The notes beneath the pieces are model-generated. The model was not told where the DNA came from. It searched no databases and saw only the letters and a program-made list of their open reading frames with translations. From contig JAUREJ010000001.1 in NCBI GenBank assembly GCA_030827475.1, positions 61,906 to 125,905 of the forward strand: a DNA stretch of 64,000 nucleotides, written 5' to 3'. How positions within the stretch are numbered: the first letter of the stretch is position 1; each line of letters starts with the position of its first letter. Below, piece by piece: positions 5,860 to 54,543 of the stretch. The stretch is from Candidatus Poseidonia sp. (lineage in GTDB: Archaea; Thermoplasmatota; Poseidoniia; Poseidoniales; Poseidoniaceae). A program made the translations under genes and the position numbers.

Positions 5860-8800
5860 CTATTGCAGGGATTGCGCGTACTGAATCGCATATTGCTGCG
5901 CATAAGCCGCTGCCGTTGCAGCATCGTAACCCTGCCCCACAAACTGGTTGTAGTATTGCTCGTAAACCGCTTGATCGTAACCAGCGGCTGGTTGTGCTGC
6001 GGCTGGTTGTGCTGCGGCTGGTTGTGCTGCGGCTTGGCCGACGTACTGTGCGGCGAACGCACGAGCCGTTTCTTCGGGGTAACCCTGTGCAATCAGTTGC
6101 TGGACGTATTGTTCGGTCGGATCAAGGGCGTCAGCGCCGAAGGCACCTTCCATGCCGGAGAAGACGTCTTCCTTTTCACCGCCCTTTCGCATGAACATCA
6201 CCGATCCACCGATAATCACGAGCAGGAGGACGATGCCCCCGATGAGAATCATCGGGTCAAGGCCGGATTCCGTTGCGTCTCCACCATCGTTCGTCTTGGT
6301 GTTGTCCTTCCATTCGCCGGTGACGGGGTCGTATTCCCACGCACCGCTCCACTGGCAGTCGCCGTTTTCATCGAGGATGAACTCGCCTCCGGCAGCTTCC
6401 GCTTCTGGGTTTGGTTCAAGGCCTTGACAAGCAGGCAAATTCAACTCGATCCACTTGATTGTCACCCAGCGTTCGTTGGGGGAGGATCCTTCGTAGTACT
6501 TGATGTACACACGCTGTGTTGTGGACTTGTTCGTATAGAAGCCTTCAATGTTCAGTGTGATCTCAAAGCGGTCGTTGTCGCCCATGGCGTCGCTCTTCCC
6601 GTACAATCCTCGGGTGCTCATGTTAAACTTCATGACCGGGGAAGCGGAGAAATCCTCCTCAAAGAAGGCTGCTTCCACATACACTTCACTCGTTTCTGCA
6701 CCGGAGAGGACCGTTCCAGCGATGGTGATGGTGTCCTGGTCGTACTTGGACTCGTTCACTGCGGTGTCCCACTGAATCACGGGTTCCTCATCTCCGAAGC
6801 CCTCGGGAACAACCACGAAGTACATCCGGTGTTTTTCCGAGAACTTACCGGCGCTGTCGTAAACGACCAATTCCATACGGATTTGGTTCTTGGTGGTGCC
6901 CGTTGAATCCACAGTCACGTTCTGGAACTTGTACGACCACAAGCCGCCGCTCGCAGCACTTTGGGTGAAGGTGTGCCCGTCGAGATCGAAGGTGTCGTCG
7001 CCGTAGGGAGCGTCGAACAGAACCTTCCACTCATAGGTCTCAATGCCGTTGCCGTCAAGTGCATCAGCGTCGGAGGAATTGCTGGCGTCAAAGTGGATGA
7101 CCAATTCTGCATCCTCGCCTTCACCCTGTAAGGTGATTTGGTAAACGTCCCATTCGGCGTTCGACACCGTCTTCGTGCCGGTGAACTCAACGTTTTCTTC
7201 GTAATCCGTACGGATGTCAATCGTGGCGTCGGCCTCAGGACGGAACTCATCGGCGTAGACATCGTTGGTCTCAACGGTCACGTCGATGATACGAGCATGG
7301 CCAGCATCGTCATGGAGCATCAGCGTGATGTCCCACTGTTCACCTTGAGCACAGCCGGTCTGAGAAGCCAAATCCGCCTTACAGAAGGTCATGCTTGGTG
7401 CTGCATCGGTGCTGTGACCGGTCACACCGTTAGCGAGACTGGAGCCGTCCCAGTTGGTCGGACCGTCGATGATCCAATCCGTGTGGAGGGTTTCGGTGGT
7501 CGTCGTGGTGAAACCGAACTCAAGCGTAGCATCGCTCTTCATGTAGCGCAATGCGTAGTTACCGGTACTCGGGTCAATGCTGGGCACTTCACCGTTGATG
7601 GTGAGGTCAAGCCCGTTGCCCAAGGTGCCGAAACCGTCAGGGTACGGCGTGACTTGGTGCTGAAGCAGGTTGCCCAGCAGCGGGAAGGTCGTGCTGTCAG
7701 CGCGCTCAGAGTGCGTAGCGACGTCGATGGTGGAGATGATCATGCCGCCGGAGAAGTAACTACACACTCCAAGAACCGTGTCTTGGATGTCTTCTGAAGA
7801 ACGGATGAGACGCTGGAAGTAACCGCCGTCTTCCATGTAACCGTCGCAGGTCTCAGGGACATTGTTGGTGCTCACGGATTTCGTGTTCAAGACGGCCTGT
7901 GCGACACCGGAACTCGCATCAAAGCCCTGGAAGGCGTTGACATCGATGTTGTCCATGATGGGGTGGTACGGGTCGGCCAAGTCCATGGTCGAGTACGTCA
8001 CCTGAGTCTCTGCCGTGTCTCGGCTTTGGACGTCCAAGCCAAAGGGCAGACGACCGGAGAGGCCTTGGTCAAGTCCGTAGATTTGGCTTCCAAGTGGGCC
8101 GAGGTGAGCCTGAACCGTGCCTCCAGCGGACATGAAGTTCTCGAGAACCGTTCGTCGGGCGGGTTCGCCAAGATACTGGTAGTATCCGTCACCGCCAAAT
8201 TGCGTGTCCTTGGCGACGAGTTGTTCCTGCCAAGGGAGGACGATCTTGTCGTAGTGGGTGAACCATCCTGCGTCAAAGTAGGTGCTCCAGTCGTTGATTT
8301 CGTACTGGGTGTAGGTCATGTTGAGAATGGCCAGGTCTTCTTTGATGGCCGAGGTGCGCGAAGAGGTGTCCGAAAGGATAGCGACGTCAACGCGATCGGC
8401 GAAGGAAGCGTGGAAGTAGCGAACGTTGCCCGTTTCACTGCCGTCGGAAAGACGGCCGTAGAAGCTGATGTTGTAGGTGTGTCCGTCAAGCCAGCCATTC
8501 CAGGGAGTGAAGGTCACGTCGGTGCGCTCTTGGCTTTGAAGGGACACCGCTGGTCCAGAGTCAACCAAGTGGGCTTGGCTGCCATCGGCCATGTCGGTGA
8601 CTTCCATGTAGAAGATGTAGTCACCTCCCAGCACACCGTTTGTCGCCTGGATGTCCCACGAGTGGGTCAAGGCGGCGTCAATGGGCAAGACGCACTCCAG
8701 CGTTTGGTCAGAGTGGCAGGTCAAGGTGTTCGGTTTCCCGATGGAGATGTCAACGGATTCCACGTTGAAGATCACGCGCTCAATGTTATTTGCTGTGGAC

Positions 8801-11800
8801 AATTCGTTGTCGTTAAACCAAGGCTTTCCGACCGTGGTGTTATCGAAGACCGTCTTGATGTCCAATCGATAGACACCTGAGACGAACTCGTGGCTGGCGA
8901 TGGTGGTCAAGGCTGCTTCCTCGGCGTCAACGTTCGTTCGAGAAGTGGAGTAGGTGGCGTCCTGGACGAAGGTGTATTCTTGGAGTGAGATGTTGTTGAA
9001 GCCAACACCCTTGAATCCATCGTTGATGCCGTTGCGTCCGTCATCGTCGGATTGGAATTCAAAGTGAACATCAACCATCGAGCCTTGCAGAGACATGCAT
9101 TCTGCGCGCCACTGCGTGGAGTCGGAGGACGAGCGGTTGAGGACGTACAGGTGCGTGAGGTCAATGCTCGTGGTCTTGACCAATTCTTCAGAGTTGAAGA
9201 AGACGTTGTAGTTGCCCGAGCCGTCGGTGTTGGCAGGATCGCCAATAAATTGCAATTCGGTTCGGTCAATGGATTCGGTGGCGTTCACGATACCGTTGCC
9301 GTCGTCGTCGTTCTGGCAGGTTCCATCTTCGTTGTAGTCGTTCCATTGGGCGTAGACAAGACCGGTGTAGTTTGTGCCGTCTTTGTCGTAATCAACGGTC
9401 ATGACAGCGTAGTCGCTGGGGTCAATGTTCCCGTTCTGGTCGATGGTGTAGAAGGTGTCAGCGTAGTACTCAAAGTTCAGGGAGACGAAGTCACCGCCCA
9501 TGTTCGTCAGGTCGATGTTGGGGATGGTGAGGGTCTCGTTTGCCCAAGCGTCGTCGTATCCGTTGGTGCCGGTGTCACAGGGGTGGCCGAACCAGTAGGC
9601 GTTGTTGTTGAAGATCTTGGTCGAACACGAGTTTTCGTTGTAAATAGCACCCTTTGGTTGCTGGTTTTCTTCGTATCGGTAACCCTGCGTACCACCCTCA
9701 AAACTCTCCACGCAGATGGCGGAAGGCGTTCCGCAGTACACATCGGAGGGCGTAGCGGAGTACACCGTCGCTTCAATGTCAAAGTCAACGGGGGTGTTGC
9801 CGAAATTGTTGGTGGTCACGCCGATATCAAAGATGCCCTCGGCGTAAAGGCCGCCGGGCTTGAAGAACTCAATCGATTCAACCGTCGGGTCGTAGAGATT
9901 GAACGGTGTCACATAACCAACGGCGTCGTCGTTGATGGCCTGTTGGTCCCAAGCATTGTTGGAGATGGTTGCGGAAATTCGGTAGGTGGTGTCGTTCAGC
10001 AGGTTTGCCGTGATTGAGGTGGTGTATTCCTGGCCGGGCTGAAGGTTACTCAGCGGGCCGATGGTGGTGGTTTGGGTTTGAGGGTTGGGCAAGAAGGCCG
10101 TGTTTTGCTTCCAGATGGTCAAGTTGTCCACAGCAAATCCGTCACGTCCGCTCCAACGACTCTCGTTGTCGTTGGCGGTTGAACCCTCAAAGCCGGTTCG
10201 GAAGCGGAAGCGGATGTCAACGGTCTGGTCGGCCCATGGCGAGAGGTCAAACGCACCAAGATCCTCCTCGGTGAAGTTGTCCCAGCCGTAGTAGGTGCCG
10301 GGGGAGAAGAGACCGTAGTAGACGATGTTCTCTGGAGCAGCCCCCCAAGAGTTGATCTTGAACATGCGGTCGTTGTCAAACCCGCCCCACATCGATGCGC
10401 CCGAGGCACATGCGCCCTGCACGGCGGCGAGTTGCGGACAGCCGATGAGGCTCCAGCCTGTTTCGTCGCTTCCGACCTCGATGATGGCAAGATCGTCCCA
10501 GACATCGCCGACAATAAAGCCGGTTCCGTCGGAGTTTCCGAGGGCACCAAGTCCCAGATGACGGAAGAGTTCGACGCTCATGAAGGCGCGGTCGGCACCC
10601 GTGAGGTCAACATCGGTGAGCACCATGGCATCGTCCCAGTTTTTGCCGTAACCCGTCCAAGTATCACCGCTGCCGTTGGTCTTGGTTTCACCGGCCCACA
10701 TGAAGTCGGTTGGGTTGATGTAATTGGCTGAAACATTTGGGTCGTTGTTTCCGGTCGAAGCCCCCACGGATTGGTTGGTTTGGAGGTGCCACTTGGTGAG
10801 GCCGTCAACGTATTCTTCGTAGGCCCATGAACAGCCGGTTCCGCAACCGGTCTTCACTTCGGGAGAATCCCAGTCGTTGGCGTACACCGTGGTGTTCGTG
10901 GAATTGGCTTCGTCTACGATTTTCAAAACGACGTCAAGGTCGGCCGTTTGTCCGTTGAGCGTGTCCATTCCGGTGTTGGTGACCGTCACGTTGACGGTAC
11001 GGGTTCCTTCACCGACGACACCAAAGAATCGGTCGGTGGGGCTGATCTCCAAATCCGTCACGGCCAAATCTTTGTTGTCCATTTCGACCACGGTGAGGGT
11101 GTCGTATTGACCCGCCCAGCCGAAGTTGTCTCGCCATCCGCCAAAGGCGTAGTTCGTGTGGCCCACGACCAAATCTGGAGCTGACGACGGACCGCCTTGG
11201 AGCTGTCCAATCGCCACGGCTGACGGGCGTCGGCCGGCTGGATAAGAAAGCGGACTCACGTGGTTTCCGTTGCCGTCGGAAAGGGTCACCTGAACGGTGG
11301 TTGGGAAAGAGAGGAAGAAGCTCGAGGTGCTTCCACCAGCGGAGTCGGTGGTGTTGAGTTGGTAAGCAATGGTGGGGTTCACGAAGTCGGGTTCGCCGTC
11401 GCCGTTGAGATCTTCAACCTCAATGGCCCACGAAATGTAGGGGCCGAAATAGGCCATCTTGGCATTTCCAAAGGCCCCCTGAGCCGTAGTTTGCTTGTAC
11501 GACACGTTTTCGAGGTTGCCGTCCATCACAGCGATGGTGTCGATGTAGCCGCTTGAGCCAACATCGGCAATGGCGAAATCCTCGGTGGAGGGGACGCCCA
11601 TGTTGACCACGTGCGTGTTGGCTTGGTTGGTTCCGTAGGCGTACGTTGCTGGGTAGTTTTGGGTGAGACAGTCGAATTCAATGATCGTGATGTTGTCGTC
11701 GTTACCGGGGTTGGTGACTTGGCCGGTGGCATAATCCAGACCTTCGCTTCGCAGAAGGAAGATATCGTCGTCGGTTGTTGATGCAGCCCCGTTGCACCCA

Positions 11801-12534
11801 AAGGCAGGGTTGGTCTCTCCCCAATCACCGACTTCGATGCTTCGGTAGGTGTTTTGTTGTGCCGAGCCAAGGTTCGTGACGAAACCTTGCGTGGAGGAGG
11901 AGATGGGTCCCTTGTAGGTCACCACTCGCTGGGTGGTAATATCAGCGAGCAAATCAAGGACATACACGTCGTCGTCTCCGTCTTGGTCTGCATCGCCGAC
12001 AGCGAGGTCCCAGACCCAAAAGTGAGTGAATCGTGCTCCGATGGACCAGTCACGGTTTGAACATCCACCGTTCTCGAGGATCGTGACGTTGCCAGGTTCG
12101 CCAGCGGGTTGCCCTTGGTCGTTGGTTTTGAAGGGGTTATTTTTCTGGTAGATGACGATGTCAACCGCATTGTCGCCGGTGAATTCACCAACTTCCACGA
12201 ATTCAACGTTGGCAAACTCATCCCAGTCTGCGTTGCGGCTTTGGTTGCCTGCCACCCAAATGTCTTGACGGTCGTTGAAATTGCCCAGGCCGTCGTTGTA
12301 CAGGATGGTCATGGTGTGGGTTCCGTCGGTAGCAACAGCCATGTCGTTGTGCCCATCGCAATCAAAATCGCCGATAGCGACGTCCATGGGGTCGCGGTTG
12401 GTGGTGTATGTTCGTGCGACGGAGGCACTTGCGGTGGTTGCGAGCGCAGCCGTGGTGCTGAGCACCATCAAGACGGTGAGGAAAAGACTGCGCATTCGGG
12501 CTTTAGAGAGGTCGTTTTGGGCAAGCATAGACAT
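5860..12534 (-). CDS. Giant cell-surface protein (FG-GAP/VCBS-like N-terminus, single C-terminal TM, QGY-repeat cytosolic tail)
   Basis: Long ORF; likely start ATG at 12534 (MSMLAQNDLSKARMRSLFLTVLMVLSTTAALATTASA); FG-GAP-like AIGDFDCDGHNDMAVATDG..TILYNDGLGNF; TM ILIGGIVLLLVIIGGSVMFM near the C-terminus. Confidence 0.85.
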   Translation of the reverse strand: MSMLAQNDLSKARMRSLFLTVLMVLSTTAALATTASASVARTYTTNRDPMDVAIGDFDCDGHNDMAVATDGTHTMTILYNDGLGNFNDRQDIWVAGNQSRNADWDEFANVEFVEVGEFTGDNAVDIVIYQKNNPFKTNDQGQPAGEPGNVTILENGGCSNRDWSIGARFTHFWVWDLAVGDADQDGDDDVYVLDLLADITTQRVVTYKGPISSSTQGFVTNLGSAQQNTYRSIEVGDWGETNPAFGCNGAASTTDDDIFLLRSEGLDYATGQVTNPGNDDNITIIEFDCLTQNYPATYAYGTNQANTHVVNMGVPSTEDFAIADVGSSGYIDTIAVMDGNLENVSYKQTTAQGAFGNAKMAYFGPYISWAIEVEDLNGDGEPDFVNPTIAYQLNTTDSAGGSTSSFFLSFPTTVQVTLSDGNGNHVSPLSYPAGRRPSAVAIGQLQGGPSSAPDLVVGHTNYAFGGWRDNFGWAGQYDTLTVVEMDNKDLAVTDLEISPTDRFFGVVGEGTRTVNVTVTNTGMDTLNGQTADLDVVLKIVDEANSTNTTVYANDWDSPEVKTGCGTGCSWAYEEYVDGLTKWHLQTNQSVGASTGNNDPNVSANYINPTDFMWAGETKTNGSGDTWTGYGKNWDDAMVLTDVDLTGADRAFMSVELFRHLGLGALGNSDGTGFIVGDVWDDLAIIEVGSDETGWSLIGCPQLAAVQGACASGASMWGGFDNDRMFKINSWGAAPENIVYYGLFSPGTYYGWDNFTEEDLGAFDLSPWADQTVDIRFRFRTGFEGSTANDNESRWSGRDGFAVDNLTIWKQNTAFLPNPQTQTTTIGPLSNLQPGQEYTTSITANLLNDTTYRISATISNNAWDQQAINDDAVGYVTPFNLYDPTVESIEFFKPGGLYAEGIFDIGVTTNNFGNTPVDFDIEATVYSATPSDVYCGTPSAICVESFEGGTQGYRYEENQQPKGAIYNENSCSTKIFNNNAYWFGHPCDTGTNGYDDAWANETLTIPNIDLTNMGGDFVSLNFEYYADTFYTIDQNGNIDPSDYAVMTVDYDKDGTNYTGLVYAQWNDYNEDGTCQNDDDGNGIVNATESIDRTELQFIGDPANTDGSGNYNVFFNSEELVKTTSIDLTHLYVLNRSSSDSTQWRAECMSLQGSMVDVHFEFQSDDDGRNGINDGFKGVGFNNISLQEYTFVQDATYSTSRTNVDAEEAALTTIASHEFVSGVYRLDIKTVFDNTTVGKPWFNDNELSTANNIERVIFNVESVDISIGKPNTLTCHSDQTLECVLPIDAALTHSWDIQATNGVLGGDYIFYMEVTDMADGSQAHLVDSGPAVSLQSQERTDVTFTPWNGWLDGHTYNISFYGRLSDGSETGNVRYFHASFADRVDVAILSDTSSRTSAIKEDLAILNMTYTQYEINDWSTYFDAGWFTHYDKIVLPWQEQLVAKDTQFGGDGYYQYLGEPARRTVLENFMSAGGTVQAHLGPLGSQIYGLDQGLSGRLPFGLDVQSRDTAETQVTYSTMDLADPYHPIMDNIDVNAFQGFDASSGVAQAVLNTKSVSTNNVPETCDGYMEDGGYFQRLIRSSEDIQDTVLGVCSYFSGGMIISTIDVATHSERADSTTFPLLGNLLQHQVTPYPDGFGTLGNGLDLTINGEVPSIDPSTGNYALRYMKSDATLEFGFTTTTTETLHTDWIIDGPTNWDGSSLANGVTGHSTDAAPSMTFCKADLASQTGCAQGEQWDITLMLHDDAGHARIIDVTVETNDVYADEFRPEADATIDIRTDYEENVEFTGTKTVSNAEWDVYQITLQGEGEDAELVIHFDASNSSDADALDGNGIETYEWKVLFDAPYGDDTFDLDGHTFTQSAASGGLWSYKFQNVTVDSTGTTKNQIRMELVVYDSAGKFSEKHRMYFVVVPEGFGDEEPVIQWDTAVNESKYDQDTITIAGTVLSGAETSEVYVEAAFFEEDFSASPVMKFNMSTRGLYGKSDAMGDNDRFEITLNIEGFYTNKSTTQRVYIKYYEGSSPNERWVTIKWIELNLPACQGLEPNPEAEAAGGEFILDENGDCQWSGAWEYDPVTGEWKDNTKTNDGGDATESGLDPMILIGGIVLLLVIIGGSVMFMRKGGEKEDVFSGMEGAFGADALDPTEQYVQQLIAQGYPEETARAFAAQYVGQAAAQPAAAQPAAAQPAAGYDQAVYEQYYNQFVGQGYDAATAAAYAQQYAIQYAQSLQ
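5987..6034. repeat. In-gene tandem repeat of ~15 bp (ggctggttgtgctgc), encoding AAQPAAAQPAAAQP
   Basis: Direct reading of the sequence. Confidence 0.8.
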
Positions 12535-12656
12535 CACTTGTCTCGGCGAGGCCTTGTTGCAATATAATGCCTTTGCAAAGCAGTTCATGATTTGGCATCC
12601 AGCGTCCCGTTTTTTGTAAAAAGGGAGGCGTTTTTCGCCCAAATTGAACCCCAGGT

Positions 12657-13355
12657 TCAGAATCGTCCAACGAGCCATTTTGGAGCAGGGCCCCATCCAA
12701 CGGCATCGCCGCCATGGATTTTCACAAGCTTCCCAGCAGCAAAAAGGGACTGAAGCCAGACCTCAAGCGATGTGCCCTCCCGGCCACCCAGTTTACTGCT
12801 GGCGATTTCTTCGATATCTTCGGTGCTGAGCCCGCTCATTCCGTGGTCGCGAACCACAAGTTGGAGAAGTTCCCTCAACCAGGCCTCAGCAAGCGGATCA
12901 ACGCTGGTTGCGCTTGAGACGGGTTGTGGGGGTTCGATATCTTCGAGCATGGCCATGAGTTCAACCGCATCAGGTCGTTCAGCTGGTTCAAGCCCGACCT
13001 CCGCCAGTTTGACTTTCAAATCCAGTTCCCCGATGGGGCGGCGGACGACAGGAATTCGTCCGGGGTCCGGCTCTGGACCCATATCAAGCGGTTTGGAAGA
13101 TTCTGGGGCATCGTCCTCTTGGGGCCCCGGCTCCTCTTTCTGGCGCTTCCGGGTCACGCTCGAGAGGTTGGTTGCCTTGACTTCAGTTCCTACAGGCATG
13201 GTCCATCCAACGCCGGAGAGACCGAGTTCGGAGATGTGCTCTTCAACCCAAGATGCCTCGCCTTCGATGACAACGTTGAGGTCATGGTCGTCCGAGCGGA
13301 ATCGGTAACGTACCTTTCCACGGAACTCCGCCATCAGTCTCTCGGCAGAACACAT
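12657..13355 (-). CDS. Conserved hypothetical protein
   Basis: Internal starts (MCSAERLMAEFRGKVRYRF) avoid overlap with the aconitase gene ending at 13375. Confidence 0.55.
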   Translation of the reverse strand: MCSAERLMAEFRGKVRYRFRSDDHDLNVVIEGEASWVEEHISELGLSGVGWTMPVGTEVKATNLSSVTRKRQKEEPGPQEDDAPESSKPLDMGPEPDPGRIPVVRRPIGELDLKVKLAEVGLEPAERPDAVELMAMLEDIEPPQPVSSATSVDPLAEAWLRELLQLVVRDHGMSGLSTEDIEEIASSKLGGREGTSLEVWLQSLFAAGKLVKIHGGDAVGWGPAPKWLVGRF

Positions 13356-49610: not shown

Positions 49611-52175
49611 TTGAGGGACGGCCACCGCCCTGCCATCATGTGGGGACTCACCATGTGGTTGGCCCTCGGGTCCGCAGCATGGTTGCTTTGGAAACCAACC
49701 ACCCACGAAACCTCTCCTCGGCTCTCCCTGCTGTTGCATGCGACGTTGGCCTTGCCGTTCGCCACGCTTGCTGCCCTGTTTCTGGTCAACAACACCTCGG
49801 TGCTCCACGTGGCTGCATTCGGCGGGGAGGCGCTTCCGCTCAAGTACCGATTTGCGGCAACGTGGGCTGCCCGCGAAGGCCCCTTGTTGATGTGGATCGG
49901 TTGGATGGCGTTGTTGGCGTGGTGGTGGCGGGGCCCCCTTGCCGGCGAAGCGACGACGGAGGGCAACCAAGCCCAACGCTGGCGACTTCGCAGCATCCAT
50001 TTGATGAGCCTCACCTTGCTTTTGGTAGGGTTTTCGCTCGACCCGTTCAAGGCAACACCGCCGTTCTTCACCGGAGCTGGGTTGAATCCCTTGCTTCAAA
50101 CGGACTTGATGGTGATTCATCCCCCCCTGATCTTCCTCGCCTATTCGTTTTGCTTGCACCTTACTGCCGTTGCGTTCGCCGCTGCTTACACGAATCAAAA
50201 CGATGGGTTGGGCGAACGAATGCTTCGAATCGCCCGACCGGGCCTCTTCGTTGCAACCCTCGGCATCGGCTTGGGTGGGCTGTGGGCTTACCTCATCCTC
50301 GATTGGGGCGGCTATTGGGCATGGGACCCGGTTGAAACCGGCTCGTTCTTGCCCTGGTTGGCCTTGGTGATGCTGGTTCACCTGCGAACACGACCCGGCA
50401 AGGTCGACAGCCGTGTTTGGGTCGGTGCGGGCATCGTGACCGGCATGCTGGCCCTCTTCGCCACAACCGTCACCAGGGCAGGCGGAGTTTGGGCGTCCTC
50501 CGTTCACACCTTCGTAACGTCCGACAGCAGCACGCCCCCGGACGACGTCTTTGGCCGCTTGATGGTGCTGCGGGGCGACGCTGCGGCGACCGAGGTGATG
50601 ACCTATGTCGTTTGGATGTTCATGCTCATCGGGTGCTGGCTTGCTATCGCACGGCGCCCTGCCGACGACAAACCCTTGCCTCGAGCCTCAGCATGGGCGG
50701 CAACATTACCTGCTTGGACGGCAGGAATTGGGAGCCTTTTCCTCACCTCCAGCGACGGGGCTTGGATGGCCTGGACGACCGTGCCCCAGATCGTTTTCGT
50801 GACGGTTCTGGTCGTCCCCTTGTTGCTCGTTCGTCCCTTCGCACCCCCAGCGGAGAAGGACAGAAAGCTTCCGTGGACCTACCACGGATGGTTGCCTCTC
50901 CCCCTCGATGCGGTGTTCCCGTTGGTGGTTTTTGCCTTGACCTCCGACGTGTTCATCACCGCAGCCATGGCGGTCCTTTTCGCCCCACTCTACCGTTCAA
51001 AGGACGCTCTTTCAGCATGGCCTTGGGCCGCAGGTGGCGTGATGTTGGGCCTTGCCTTGGCGTGGTCGCAACTGCTCTCAATCGCTGTTGCGGGCGTCGT
51101 CCTGCTCATGTTCGTCTTGCCCTGGCTTGTCGCACCGCAAAACGACGAACGAAACCCGCTTGATGTTCGGGAACGAAAAGGCCAGCAAATCGTCGCTCTC
51201 TGGTCCAGCGTGATTCTTGTCAGTCTCTATCTGGTCCTGTCGTGGGTGCTGCTCTTAGCGAGCATTGACGCGGTGAATTTTGAGGCCCACGAACTCTACG
51301 GTGCTCCTTTCCTCGCAGGACTGGGCGCTTCCCTCTTCCTCTACGCCCGTCGCCACGACAAAGCTTCGACCAATCTGCTTCTGTTGGCGGGAGCCGGTGC
51401 GCTCTCTGTTGCTGGATTTGTGTTCGCTCCAAATGCGTTCGGAAGCGACTCCGAAACCATGGTATCGGAGCATTTGACGCGTGGGCATCTCGTTTGGATG
51501 ACCTTCCCTTTGCTCGCCTTGGCCACCGCTCCCATCGGCAGAGAAGTTGTGCGGAACGTTCAGACCGCTCGCAAAAAGGGCACCTGGAAACGCATTCCGC
51601 TTGGGGCACACGTGGTCCACTTGGGGCTGCTGCTTCTTCTGCTGGGACATCTGTCCACCACGGTTCTCGTGGACCGAGGGGATGCAGCCCACCGAATTTC
51701 CTTGGTCAAAGACGAGGTCATCATCCATGATGGGTTTGGCTTTGTCTTTGAAGAGCTCGTTTTGGAGAGCGAGAACTTGGAGGTCGGTGACGGCTTCATT
51801 GGTGTTCAAATCGGCATTTTTGCCGTGGAGAATGGCGATGTTGGTGAGCGTATCGGAGAGGTCTTGCCCGGCACCCTCAGGTTTGACAATCAAGGCACGC
51901 CGAGGTCGGAAGTGGACACCCTCACCCGAGCGACCGGCGACTTGGTGTTCATCTTTGACGGAAGTCAAGCGGGCGGCCTCATGGCCAGCGCACAAGGCGG
52001 TTCGTTGTCCGATGTTGAGGTTGTCCGGGTGACGATTTACAACCTCCCACATTCTCATGTTGTTTGGCTTGGTTGGGGCATGATGATGCTCGGTATGCTC
52101 GCCGTTGCTTGGACAGGGATGAAGAGGGACAACGGAATGCAACCCGGTGGCGAATCTCAACACGAAGAAGAATAA
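49611..52175 (+). CDS. ccmF: Cytochrome c-type biogenesis protein CcmF-like (heme lyase)
   Basis: WAAREGPLLMWIGWMALLAWWW, LNPLLQTDLMVIHPPLIFLAY, WGGYWAWDPVETGSFLPWLALVMLVH (WWD-like motif); a start at 49638 is also plausible. Confidence 0.88.
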   Translation: MRDGHRPAIMWGLTMWLALGSAAWLLWKPTTHETSPRLSLLLHATLALPFATLAALFLVNNTSVLHVAAFGGEALPLKYRFAATWAAREGPLLMWIGWMALLAWWWRGPLAGEATTEGNQAQRWRLRSIHLMSLTLLLVGFSLDPFKATPPFFTGAGLNPLLQTDLMVIHPPLIFLAYSFCLHLTAVAFAAAYTNQNDGLGERMLRIARPGLFVATLGIGLGGLWAYLILDWGGYWAWDPVETGSFLPWLALVMLVHLRTRPGKVDSRVWVGAGIVTGMLALFATTVTRAGGVWASSVHTFVTSDSSTPPDDVFGRLMVLRGDAAATEVMTYVVWMFMLIGCWLAIARRPADDKPLPRASAWAATLPAWTAGIGSLFLTSSDGAWMAWTTVPQIVFVTVLVVPLLLVRPFAPPAEKDRKLPWTYHGWLPLPLDAVFPLVVFALTSDVFITAAMAVLFAPLYRSKDALSAWPWAAGGVMLGLALAWSQLLSIAVAGVVLLMFVLPWLVAPQNDERNPLDVRERKGQQIVALWSSVILVSLYLVLSWVLLLASIDAVNFEAHELYGAPFLAGLGASLFLYARRHDKASTNLLLLAGAGALSVAGFVFAPNAFGSDSETMVSEHLTRGHLVWMTFPLLALATAPIGREVVRNVQTARKKGTWKRIPLGAHVVHLGLLLLLLGHLSTTVLVDRGDAAHRISLVKDEVIIHDGFGFVFEELVLESENLEVGDGFIGVQIGIFAVENGDVGERIGEVLPGTLRFDNQGTPRSEVDTLTRATGDLVFIFDGSQAGGLMASAQGGSLSDVEVVRVTIYNLPHSHVVWLGWGMMMLGMLAVAWTGMKRDNGMQPGGESQHEEE

Positions 52176-52238
52176 CTCCGGCCAATGGGATTATGAAGGG
52201 GGGGCCGGTCGCCGAATCATCCCCTTGGAGGCAAGGCT

Positions 52239-53105
52239 ATGGAAGAAGGAACAATTGTCCACGTTGATTATGAATTGTACAACGGCGAAAACGGCGACCT
52301 GATCGAGACGACTCGAGAAGCCATCGCCAAGCAGCACGAAACCCACCAAGAAGGGCGCACGTATTCGCCCATGGTTTGCGTTGTCGGAAGCGGCAACCTC
52401 ATCCCCGGATTCGAGGCAGCCCTCGCCGACGCCAAGGCAAACAAGGAAATCGAGGTCGTCATTGAACCCGCAGACGCCTACGGCGAGAAAGACCCGCAAC
52501 AAATCGAGACCATCAGCATTGACAAATTGGTCCGCGCTGTTCAAGACCCCAATTCGCTCTACATCGGAGCCCCCGTCAACATTGGCGGACGTCAGGGTTA
52601 CCTCTCGTACCTGGCTGCCGGCCGTGCTCGAATTGACTACAACCACCCCATGGCCGGGAAGACGCTGAAGTATTCCTTCAAGATCGTCAAGGTCGTTGAG
52701 GGCAAAGAGGAGCAAGTCACGGCCCTCTTGGAGTCCAACACCGGTCACAGCGATTTTGGCGTGAGCTTCGACGGCGACGACCTCAACATCGTTTTGCCCC
52801 AAACCATGCTCTTTGACACCAACGCTGCGATGATGAAGTTCCGGCTTGTTACGGTGATTCGAGATGCAGTTGAGTGCGGTAAGGTCTCGTTCATCGAAGT
52901 TCACGAACCCCGTGGATTTGGCGTGAATGACCATGACCACGACCATGACCACGATCATGACCACGATCATGACCACGATCACGGCGAAGACCTCTCCAAA
53001 CTCTCTGTCGCTGAGTTGAAGGAGCGGTTGAATGCTGCAGGTCTGCCCGTTGGTGGGAAGAAAGCGGACCTCGTCGCTCGCCTTTCAGCCTCAGAAGAAG
53101 AGTGA
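52239..53105 (+). CDS. FKBP-type (SlyD-like) peptidyl-prolyl isomerase with (DH)n tract and C-terminal SAP domain
   Basis: HVDYELYNGENGDLIETT, GSGNLIPGFEAAL, DAYGEKDP, DYNHPMAGKTLKYSFKIVKV; NDHDHDHDHDHDHDHDHDHG; LSKLSVAELKERLNAAGLPVGGKKADLVARLSA. Confidence 0.88.
   Translation: MEEGTIVHVDYELYNGENGDLIETTREAIAKQHETHQEGRTYSPMVCVVGSGNLIPGFEAALADAKANKEIEVVIEPADAYGEKDPQQIETISIDKLVRAVQDPNSLYIGAPVNIGGRQGYLSYLAAGRARIDYNHPMAGKTLKYSFKIVKVVEGKEEQVTALLESNTGHSDFGVSFDGDDLNIVLPQTMLFDTNAAMMKFRLVTVIRDAVECGKVSFIEVHEPRGFGVNDHDHDHDHDHDHDHDHDHGEDLSKLSVAELKERLNAAGLPVGGKKADLVARLSASEEE
52929..52983 (+). repeat. In-gene tandem repeat (catgaccacgat units) encoding poly-(His-Asp)
   Basis: Direct reading of the sequence. 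Confidence 0.9.
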
Positions 53106-53154: not shown

Positions 53155-54543
53155 GTGACGACAGTGGAAGAAGGCTATCCCTCGCAATCCTTGCACTCCC
53201 CCCCGTTGCCCGACGACGTGTACACCACGGCGGAAAAGGCCGTAATTTGGGCTGCTCTTGCTCTCGCTCTCGGCCTCCTTGCTGGCTTGATGCTTGCGTT
53301 TGACACCGTTTGGACGGAAACCCTACGCCCCATCATTTGGGAGCCGGTGGTCAAAGATGCTGGTGCGGCAGGGGACGCCGGATACACACCGCAAAACACC
53401 GCCATCTACACCCTGAGCATGCTCGGTTCGGTGGTTTTGCTCCAGGCCTTGTTCAGAAAATGGAAACTTCCCTCCGACGAGCGCATGACGCTGGCGCTGA
53501 TCGCTTGGGTCTGCCTTGCTCCGGTGCTTCGCGTGCTCGAGGACGCCGATTTTTTCTCATCATCGCAGGACGTGCTGTTCATTTCTCCCATCATCCACCT
53601 CCACCTCGCCGGCTGGTTGGTGGTCGTTGCCACCGTAAGCCATGTCGTCGCCGGCCGGCTTGACGACCTGACCTCCGATCTTGCTGAAGAGCGAAAGAAA
53701 ACCCTGCTTCTTGGCACCCTTTTTGCGCTCTTGATGGCCCACTGGTGGTGGTTGTACAGACCGGCGTACGCAAGCCATGAAGGACTGGAGTTTGCCGTTG
53801 GAACCTTTGGATTGGCCATCGCATCGGCGGTGTTGGTGGCCACCGTGGTCCAAACCCGAGGCTGGCCGGCACTCACCCGAGGCATGGTGACCTTTGCCAA
53901 CGCCGCCGTGACCCTCGGCTTGGCGCATTGGATTCAATTTGCCCTGACGCCCTGGGCCCAGGAAAGTGGGAGGATGTCCGGCGACATCACCCTTTGGCCA
54001 GCATTGGTGGTGCTGGGCTTACCTGCACTCGTGTGTGTATTCCTGTACCGTGCGGGGAAAGACGACGCCCTACAACTCCGGTTGACCGGCTTCACGCCTG
54101 GCGTGCTGCCGCCCGAAATCGGTATCAAGCAATGGGAGGAAGAAAAAGAGGCCTGGGCTGACCACCCCGTGGAATTCTTGTCAAACAAAGCACTTCTTGC
54201 CCATCCCATGGTGCTCGGCATGGTCTTCGGCCAATTGTGCGACGGGTTTGCCACGATGATGGGCATCGACATGTTCGGATACGGCGAAAAGCACCCGGTA
54301 AGCGACAGCGTCATCCAATTTGGCGGAACCGTCAACGATGCGCTCGGCATTGGTTGGGGCGAGGGGGCCTGGCTTTTCGCCCTCGTCAAGGCCGCCCTCG
54401 TTGGCCTCATCGTCTGGTTGTTCGTCCAGATGCGGGTCGAGCATCGCCAGCAACACTTCCGTTTGCTCATCGTTCTCGCCGTGCTTATCGTTGGTTTAGC
54501 GCCGGGTCTGCGAGACATCGGGCGGTTGATGCTCGGTGTTTGA
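53155..54543 (+). CDS. DUF63-like polytopic membrane protein
   Basis: GTG start; ~10 hydrophobic segments; family assignment from general resemblance only. Confidence 0.6.
   Translation: MTTVEEGYPSQSLHSPPLPDDVYTTAEKAVIWAALALALGLLAGLMLAFDTVWTETLRPIIWEPVVKDAGAAGDAGYTPQNTAIYTLSMLGSVVLLQALFRKWKLPSDERMTLALIAWVCLAPVLRVLEDADFFSSSQDVLFISPIIHLHLAGWLVVVATVSHVVAGRLDDLTSDLAEERKKTLLLGTLFALLMAHWWWLYRPAYASHEGLEFAVGTFGLAIASAVLVATVVQTRGWPALTRGMVTFANAAVTLGLAHWIQFALTPWAQESGRMSGDITLWPALVVLGLPALVCVFLYRAGKDDALQLRLTGFTPGVLPPEIGIKQWEEEKEAWADHPVEFLSNKALLAHPMVLGMVFGQLCDGFATMMGIDMFGYGEKHPVSDSVIQFGGTVNDALGIGWGEGAWLFALVKAALVGLIVWLFVQMRVEHRQQHFRLLIVLAVLIVGLAPGLRDIGRLMLGV

Follow-up and report, generated by a model that had tools for sequence, protein, structure and literature searches.

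The joining of an FKBP-type folding enzyme to a histidine-rich acidic tail and a C-terminal SAP domain raises the question of what a SAP domain does on such an enzyme, and whether the metal-ligand tract is part of its function. The gene in question lies at 52239..53105 on the plus strand, as do all features described below unless stated otherwise, of a 64,000-nucleotide stretch of DNA from Candidatus Poseidonia sp. (the window), whose source genome is identified by its relatives as Candidatus Poseidoniales (Marine Group II), close to Poseidonia. It is a complete gene coding for 288 aa, and its orthologues align from the identical start. An earlier note, made from the sequence alone, had described the product as a SlyD-like FKBP fused to about nine Asp-His pairs and a SAP domain, and had suggested domain searches for FKBP_C and SAP. 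Both domains were found above the curated Pfam cut-offs, FKBP_C at residues 3-88 (E 5e-9, 36.8 bits vs a cut-off of 21.1) and SAP at residues 251-282 (52989..53084; E 1.1e-10, 41.3 bits vs 23.9), which bears out the fusion. The tract contains exactly nine DH pairs (residues 231-248; 52929..52982) within an acidic linker of predicted disorder, and its DNA is a 12-bp tandem unit CATGACCACGAT repeated 4.2 times (52932-52981). The same domain order was found in full-length orthologues from dozens of independently assembled genomes, and a chimeric assembly or mis-assembly was rejected on these grounds. An antisense ORF at 52191-52982 is in all likelihood spurious, a by-product of codon composition. 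Elsewhere in the window, an ORF of 2278 aa occupies positions 5860-12696 of the minus strand.

With regard to the enzyme itself, the FKBP assignment stood, but the SlyD label proved too loose, the core being of the FKBP26 type. The best relative of solved structure was FKBP26 from M. jannaschii (MjFKBP26), retrieved by phmmer over residues 2-224 with an E value of 2.3e-27 and 30% identity, whereas the matches to SlyD proteins were weaker (E 6e-12 to 7e-7). A Foldseek search with the predicted model of the protein also returned 3prb in first place (E 7e-25, 226-228 columns, TMt 0.80-0.84), and the curated SlyD model PRK10737 gave a score of 38 against a cut-off of 174. The FKBP domain together with its insert-in-flap region spans residues ~3-154 (52245..52700), with phmmer matches to 3prb, 3pr9 and 1ix5 and a pLDDT of about 90 in the AlphaFold2 model. 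The insert-in-flap typical of the FKBP26 family was aligned throughout with 3prb and 3pr9, and a Pfam FKBP26_IF match below cut-off (52563..52652; E 0.0017) falls inside the MjFKBP26 alignment. Residues ~155-224 (52701..52910) correspond to the FKBP26-type C-terminal chaperone/dimer domain, as indicated by phmmer and Foldseek, although the Pfam FKBP26_C match remained below cut-off (E 0.0015). The parts listed in the triple-fusion layout of the earlier note were thus all present, but this domain had been overlooked and the layout was incomplete. In SlyD the metal-binding tail comes straight after the FKBP fold, whereas here the extra C-terminal domain lies between them; the SlyD assignment was rejected because the FKBP26 match was far better and covered more residues. 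On sequence and predicted structure, the product of 52239-53105 is a long-type archaeal FKBP26, and the whole protein consists of four folded parts and a linker. In an alignment read by eye, the catalytic Asp of FKBP12 (D37) corresponds to Glu23 and F36 to Ile22, so the isomerase activity may be weak.

The predicted structure was also informative on the C-terminal end. In the AlphaFold2 model, built from ten sequences (that of the window and relatives), the core was confident, residues 226-248 had a pLDDT below 50, and a helical unit at residues 252-287 was again confident (pLDDT ~85). Within this unit, predicted helices at 257-266 and 275-287 form a helix-loop-helix with the two helices and connecting loop of the PF02037 family, which together with the Pfam score supports the claim that the C-terminus folds as a SAP domain. 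The pN/pS value of the SAP (0.118) was close to that of the core (0.124) in a set of 28 genus-level sequences/species, indicating that the domain is maintained by purifying selection. The SAP was present in every orthologue read in the window's genus (28 genomes), as well as in the members read of genera g3, g16 and g18 and, in family f2, of g14; it was missing in g2, g4, g5, g6, g17, g19, g20 and the other f2 genera read. The net charge of the SAP is only +1, flanked by a linker of -8 and a C-terminus of -3, a situation unfavourable to nucleic-acid binding. A terminal Glu-Glu-Glu (53094..53102 in the window) was found in 59 of 65 SAP-bearing orthologues and in all 39 SAP-less ones, so that a conserved acidic end follows the SAP. 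The product of the upstream gene, a CcmF-like protein, likewise ends in EEE.

Much less constancy was observed in the histidine tract. Only 13 of 62 SAP-bearing orthologues had at least four His in the linker, the remaining 49 having fewer than four and a D/E-rich linker instead. The number of DH repeats was nine in the window, ten in a sister sequence at 98% identity and six in another relative. A DH tract was also found without any SAP (L046), from which it follows that metal binding and the SAP need not go together, and HVHDENC motifs occurred in other SAP-less proteins (L055, L056, L075, L076). Cys-rich tails with CxxxxC spacing were observed in SAP-less FKBP26 orthologues of other genera (L211, L213, L230, L231) and are possibly another metal site, while nearly all FKBP tails of family f2 are short and end in EEE. 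As judged from these orthologues, metal-ligand tails evolve repeatedly and independently of the SAP, and (DH)n is a dispensable stretch of the tail that differs between species. These data bear on the proposal that the protein is a DNA-directed isomerase resembling nuclear FKBPs, in which metal bound to (DH)n would switch nucleic-acid binding by the SAP. The coexistence of both elements in one protein speaks for such a device, and eukaryotic SAP domains are often DNA-binding; on the other side, no domain beyond the FKBP fold is shared with FKBP25 or NPL-FKBPs, and the independent variation of the His tract and the SAP from species to species means that a built-in switch cannot be the function that is conserved. 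We rejected the metal switch in that role and consider the model as a whole very improbable. What stands of the proposed coupling of prolyl isomerization and metal sensing to DNA or RNA is the union of a folding-enzyme core with a SAP; metal sensing as a built-in design does not, with the His tract confined to a minority, variable in length, mostly replaced by D/E linkers and also present without a SAP.

The gene neighbourhood suggests a different use for such tails. The FKBP gene is preceded by a CcmF/NrfE-like heme lyase of cytochrome c assembly (49611..52175; Pfam Cytochrom_C_asm, 1.4e-22) and followed by a DUF63 membrane protein (53155..54543; Pfam DUF63). CcmF was found upstream of FKBP26 in nearly every Poseidoniales locus read, SAP-less ones included, and DUF63 downstream in nearly all f1 loci and in part of those of f2. 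The main rival of a nucleic-acid role is a SlyD-like metallochaperone serving CcmF-dependent cytochrome maturation, whose core would fold clients and whose tail would store or deliver metal in concert with the adjacent CcmF, the SAP being secondary. The nearly order-wide adjacency fits this reading, as do tails that are independently rich in metal ligands, whether (DH)n with or without SAP, HVHDENC or CxxxxC in type, and the tail of E. coli SlyD binds Ni, although many SlyD proteins have no such tail (PMC11198818). Against it, most orthologues have neither His nor Cys in the tail, and the retention of the SAP is left unexplained. Moreover, the catalytic side of CcmF is extracellular, and the FKBP has no evident signal peptide. 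We regard the metallochaperone as rather unlikely on balance, but the conserved synteny with CcmF, and not with ribosomal genes, does count against a tether to the translation machinery, the reading developed below.

The origin of the FKBP SAP was addressed by comparing orthologues. That the compared FKBP genes are orthologues is indicated by their shared neighbours, by alignment over the full length and by a tree of the core, which broadly tracks family and genus, with g1 and g16 intermixed and g14 staying within f2. The SAPs of these orthologues share a sequence type of their own, LKER[LC]KAAGLPVGGKK, and the FKBP SAP of f2 genus g14 showed a median identity of 93% to those of f1, although the cores are only ~50-54% identical. 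By comparison, the g14 FKBP SAP matched the SAPs of its own eS1 and eL32 ribosomal proteins at 21 and 18 of 30 residues, respectively, and that of the window matched its own at 19 and 16 of 30. The resemblance of the g14 domain to the f1 FKBP SAPs speaks against a separate capture in every lineage from eS1 or eL32, and the FKBP SAP was probably not acquired anew from a ribosomal gene each time. An ancestral SAP with repeated losses and a transfer of the tail are both possible origins, 30 residues being insufficient to choose between them.

That these archaea also have SAP-tagged ribosomal proteins throughout their class is, in our opinion, a more surprising result than the FKBP-SAP fusion. Profile searches, on which the whole census rests, identified seven SAP domains in the source genome. 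One is N-terminal on eL32, one C-terminal on eS1 and one internal to Pus10; the FKBP and an M28-like peptidase carry one each, and two other proteins account for the rest. SAP domains were detected in 59 of 59 Poseidoniales genomes searched and in none of 14 control genomes. The C-terminal SAP of eS1 was found in 30 of 30 Poseidoniales genomes (L110-L139; one is a fragment at a contig end), and the N-terminal SAP of eL32 was in frame in 28 of 30 (L140-L169), the two exceptions being a gene cut by a contig end and a frameshifted one whose SAP lies immediately upstream in a different frame. The sister family f3 has C-terminal SAPs on eS1 and uL24 (L174, L181 for uL24). In these ribosomal proteins the linker that bears the SAP is long and acidic. 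Across a phylum-wide sample, any SAP was found in 37 of 37 Poseidoniia vs 14 of 108 other genomes, where the hosts mostly belonged to one family of ~330-aa proteins and, among those read, included no ribosomal or FKBP hosts. SAP domains thus mark the class Poseidoniia. As to further hosts, in the tRNA pseudouridine synthase Pus10 the SAP is inserted within the C-terminal region (L005, L190), and several membrane-associated proteins carry a terminal SAP (L004, L006, L179, L187, L188, L189, L193), namely the M28-like peptidase, a subtilase, a terminal-oxidase-like protein and unknowns; by simple topology reasoning, these terminal SAPs would face the cytosol. Coiled-coil proteins are also among the Poseidoniia hosts.

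Taken with the sequence evidence, this context leads us to favour, at somewhat less than an even chance, an FKBP26 folding chaperone/isomerase that is tethered by its SAP near nucleic acid, most likely RNA of the translation machinery. The SAP at the end of the disordered acidic tail would keep the folding enzyme tethered close to nucleic acid, and translation-machinery or ribosomal RNA would be the likeliest site because the same organisms bear SAPs on the acidic linkers of eS1 and eL32. If the protein is dimeric like MjFKBP26, each molecule would present two SAP arms. The (DH)n stretch would be an expanded piece of linker that probably chelates Ni, Zn or Co where present, as an added function and not a core one. 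Nucleic-acid binding, the RNA or ribosome target, dimerization, isomerase activity and metal binding are all properties that we infer for the FKBP26-SAP protein. Two further observations weigh against the tether. Many Poseidoniales lack a SAP on FKBP26, and the tag is not confined to translation, since membrane proteases and an oxidase have SAP tails as well. The same observations would fit a mobile helical module that is favoured in this lineage and has nothing to do with nucleic acid here, serving in protein-protein contact or as a solubility or stability cap: its hosts in Poseidoniia are diverse (membrane proteases, an oxidase subunit, coiled-coil proteins), and its presence on the FKBP changes from genus to genus. 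However, the FKBP-specific SAP sequence is conserved across families, purifying selection on it is as strong as on the core, and two ribosomal proteins retain their SAP near-universally, which makes such a module improbable in our estimation.

A broader version of the tether, which we put forward as a doubtful extension, would consider the Poseidoniia SAP as a general cytosolic address tag on eS1, eL32/uL24, Pus10, FKBP26 and, on what is presumed to be their inner side, membrane proteins. It would draw ribosomes, the chaperone and membrane-bound enzymes onto nucleic acid, either the nucleoid or mRNA, and would organise transcription, translation and folding as coupled processes in a cell devoid of nucleus. 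Both bacteria (trigger factor) and eukaryotes possess chaperones that work on the ribosome; to our knowledge, a link of FKBP chaperones to nucleic acid is unexplored in archaea. In the open-licence literature we found no paper describing an FKBP-SAP protein in archaea, or SAP domains in Marine Group II/Poseidoniales or in archaeal ribosomal proteins, and no earlier test of such an organising device was found in the literature searched. None of the domains is new, and the FKBP-SAP fusion represents a variant within an established family. Should SAPs indeed tether ribosomes and a chaperone to nucleic acid, this would be a device of cellular organisation in highly abundant marine archaea, and each piece of the proposed system is small enough for assay.

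Comparison with known systems places the window protein closest to M. jannaschii FKBP26 (3prb/3prd), with which it shares the FKBP, insert-in-flap and C-terminal domains over residues 2-224 and the same predicted fold; MjFKBP26 has neither SAP nor DH tract, and the window protein adds residues 225-288. Bacterial SlyD has in common with it the FKBP plus insert-in-flap organisation and a C-terminal tail rich in metal ligands, but lacks the FKBP26 C-terminal domain and the SAP, and the tract of the window protein differs in being a regular (DH)9 that is missing from most of its own orthologues. The SAP itself is the same 32-residue helix-loop-helix motif as in Tho1, SAF/Hcc-1, MKL1 and the N-terminal relatives of bacterial Ku and Rho (phmmer matches 2kvu, 2do1, 1zrj and 1h1j); those known hosts are nuclear or repair proteins, whereas here the host is a folding enzyme. 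The nuclear FKBPs to which the protein had been likened, FKBP25 (FKBP3) and Fpr4/AtFKBP53, also join a prolyl isomerase to a nucleic-acid- or chromatin-binding part, but the likeness is a functional analogy only. Their binding domains are unrelated and N-terminal, and they lack the insert-in-flap and the FKBP26 C-terminal domain; in the window protein FKBP26 covers residues 1-224, and no Pfam match to a BTHB or nucleoplasmin-like N-terminal domain was obtained. FKBP25 nevertheless associates with RNA and pre-60S ribosomes, a eukaryotic precedent for an FKBP at that site (PMC4496705). A better context is provided by the SAP-tagged eS1, eL32 and uL24 of Poseidoniia, which differ from the FKBP in their ribosomal nature and in the sequence type of their SAP, but share with it the same design, in which an acidic linker joins the SAP to one end of a conserved core.
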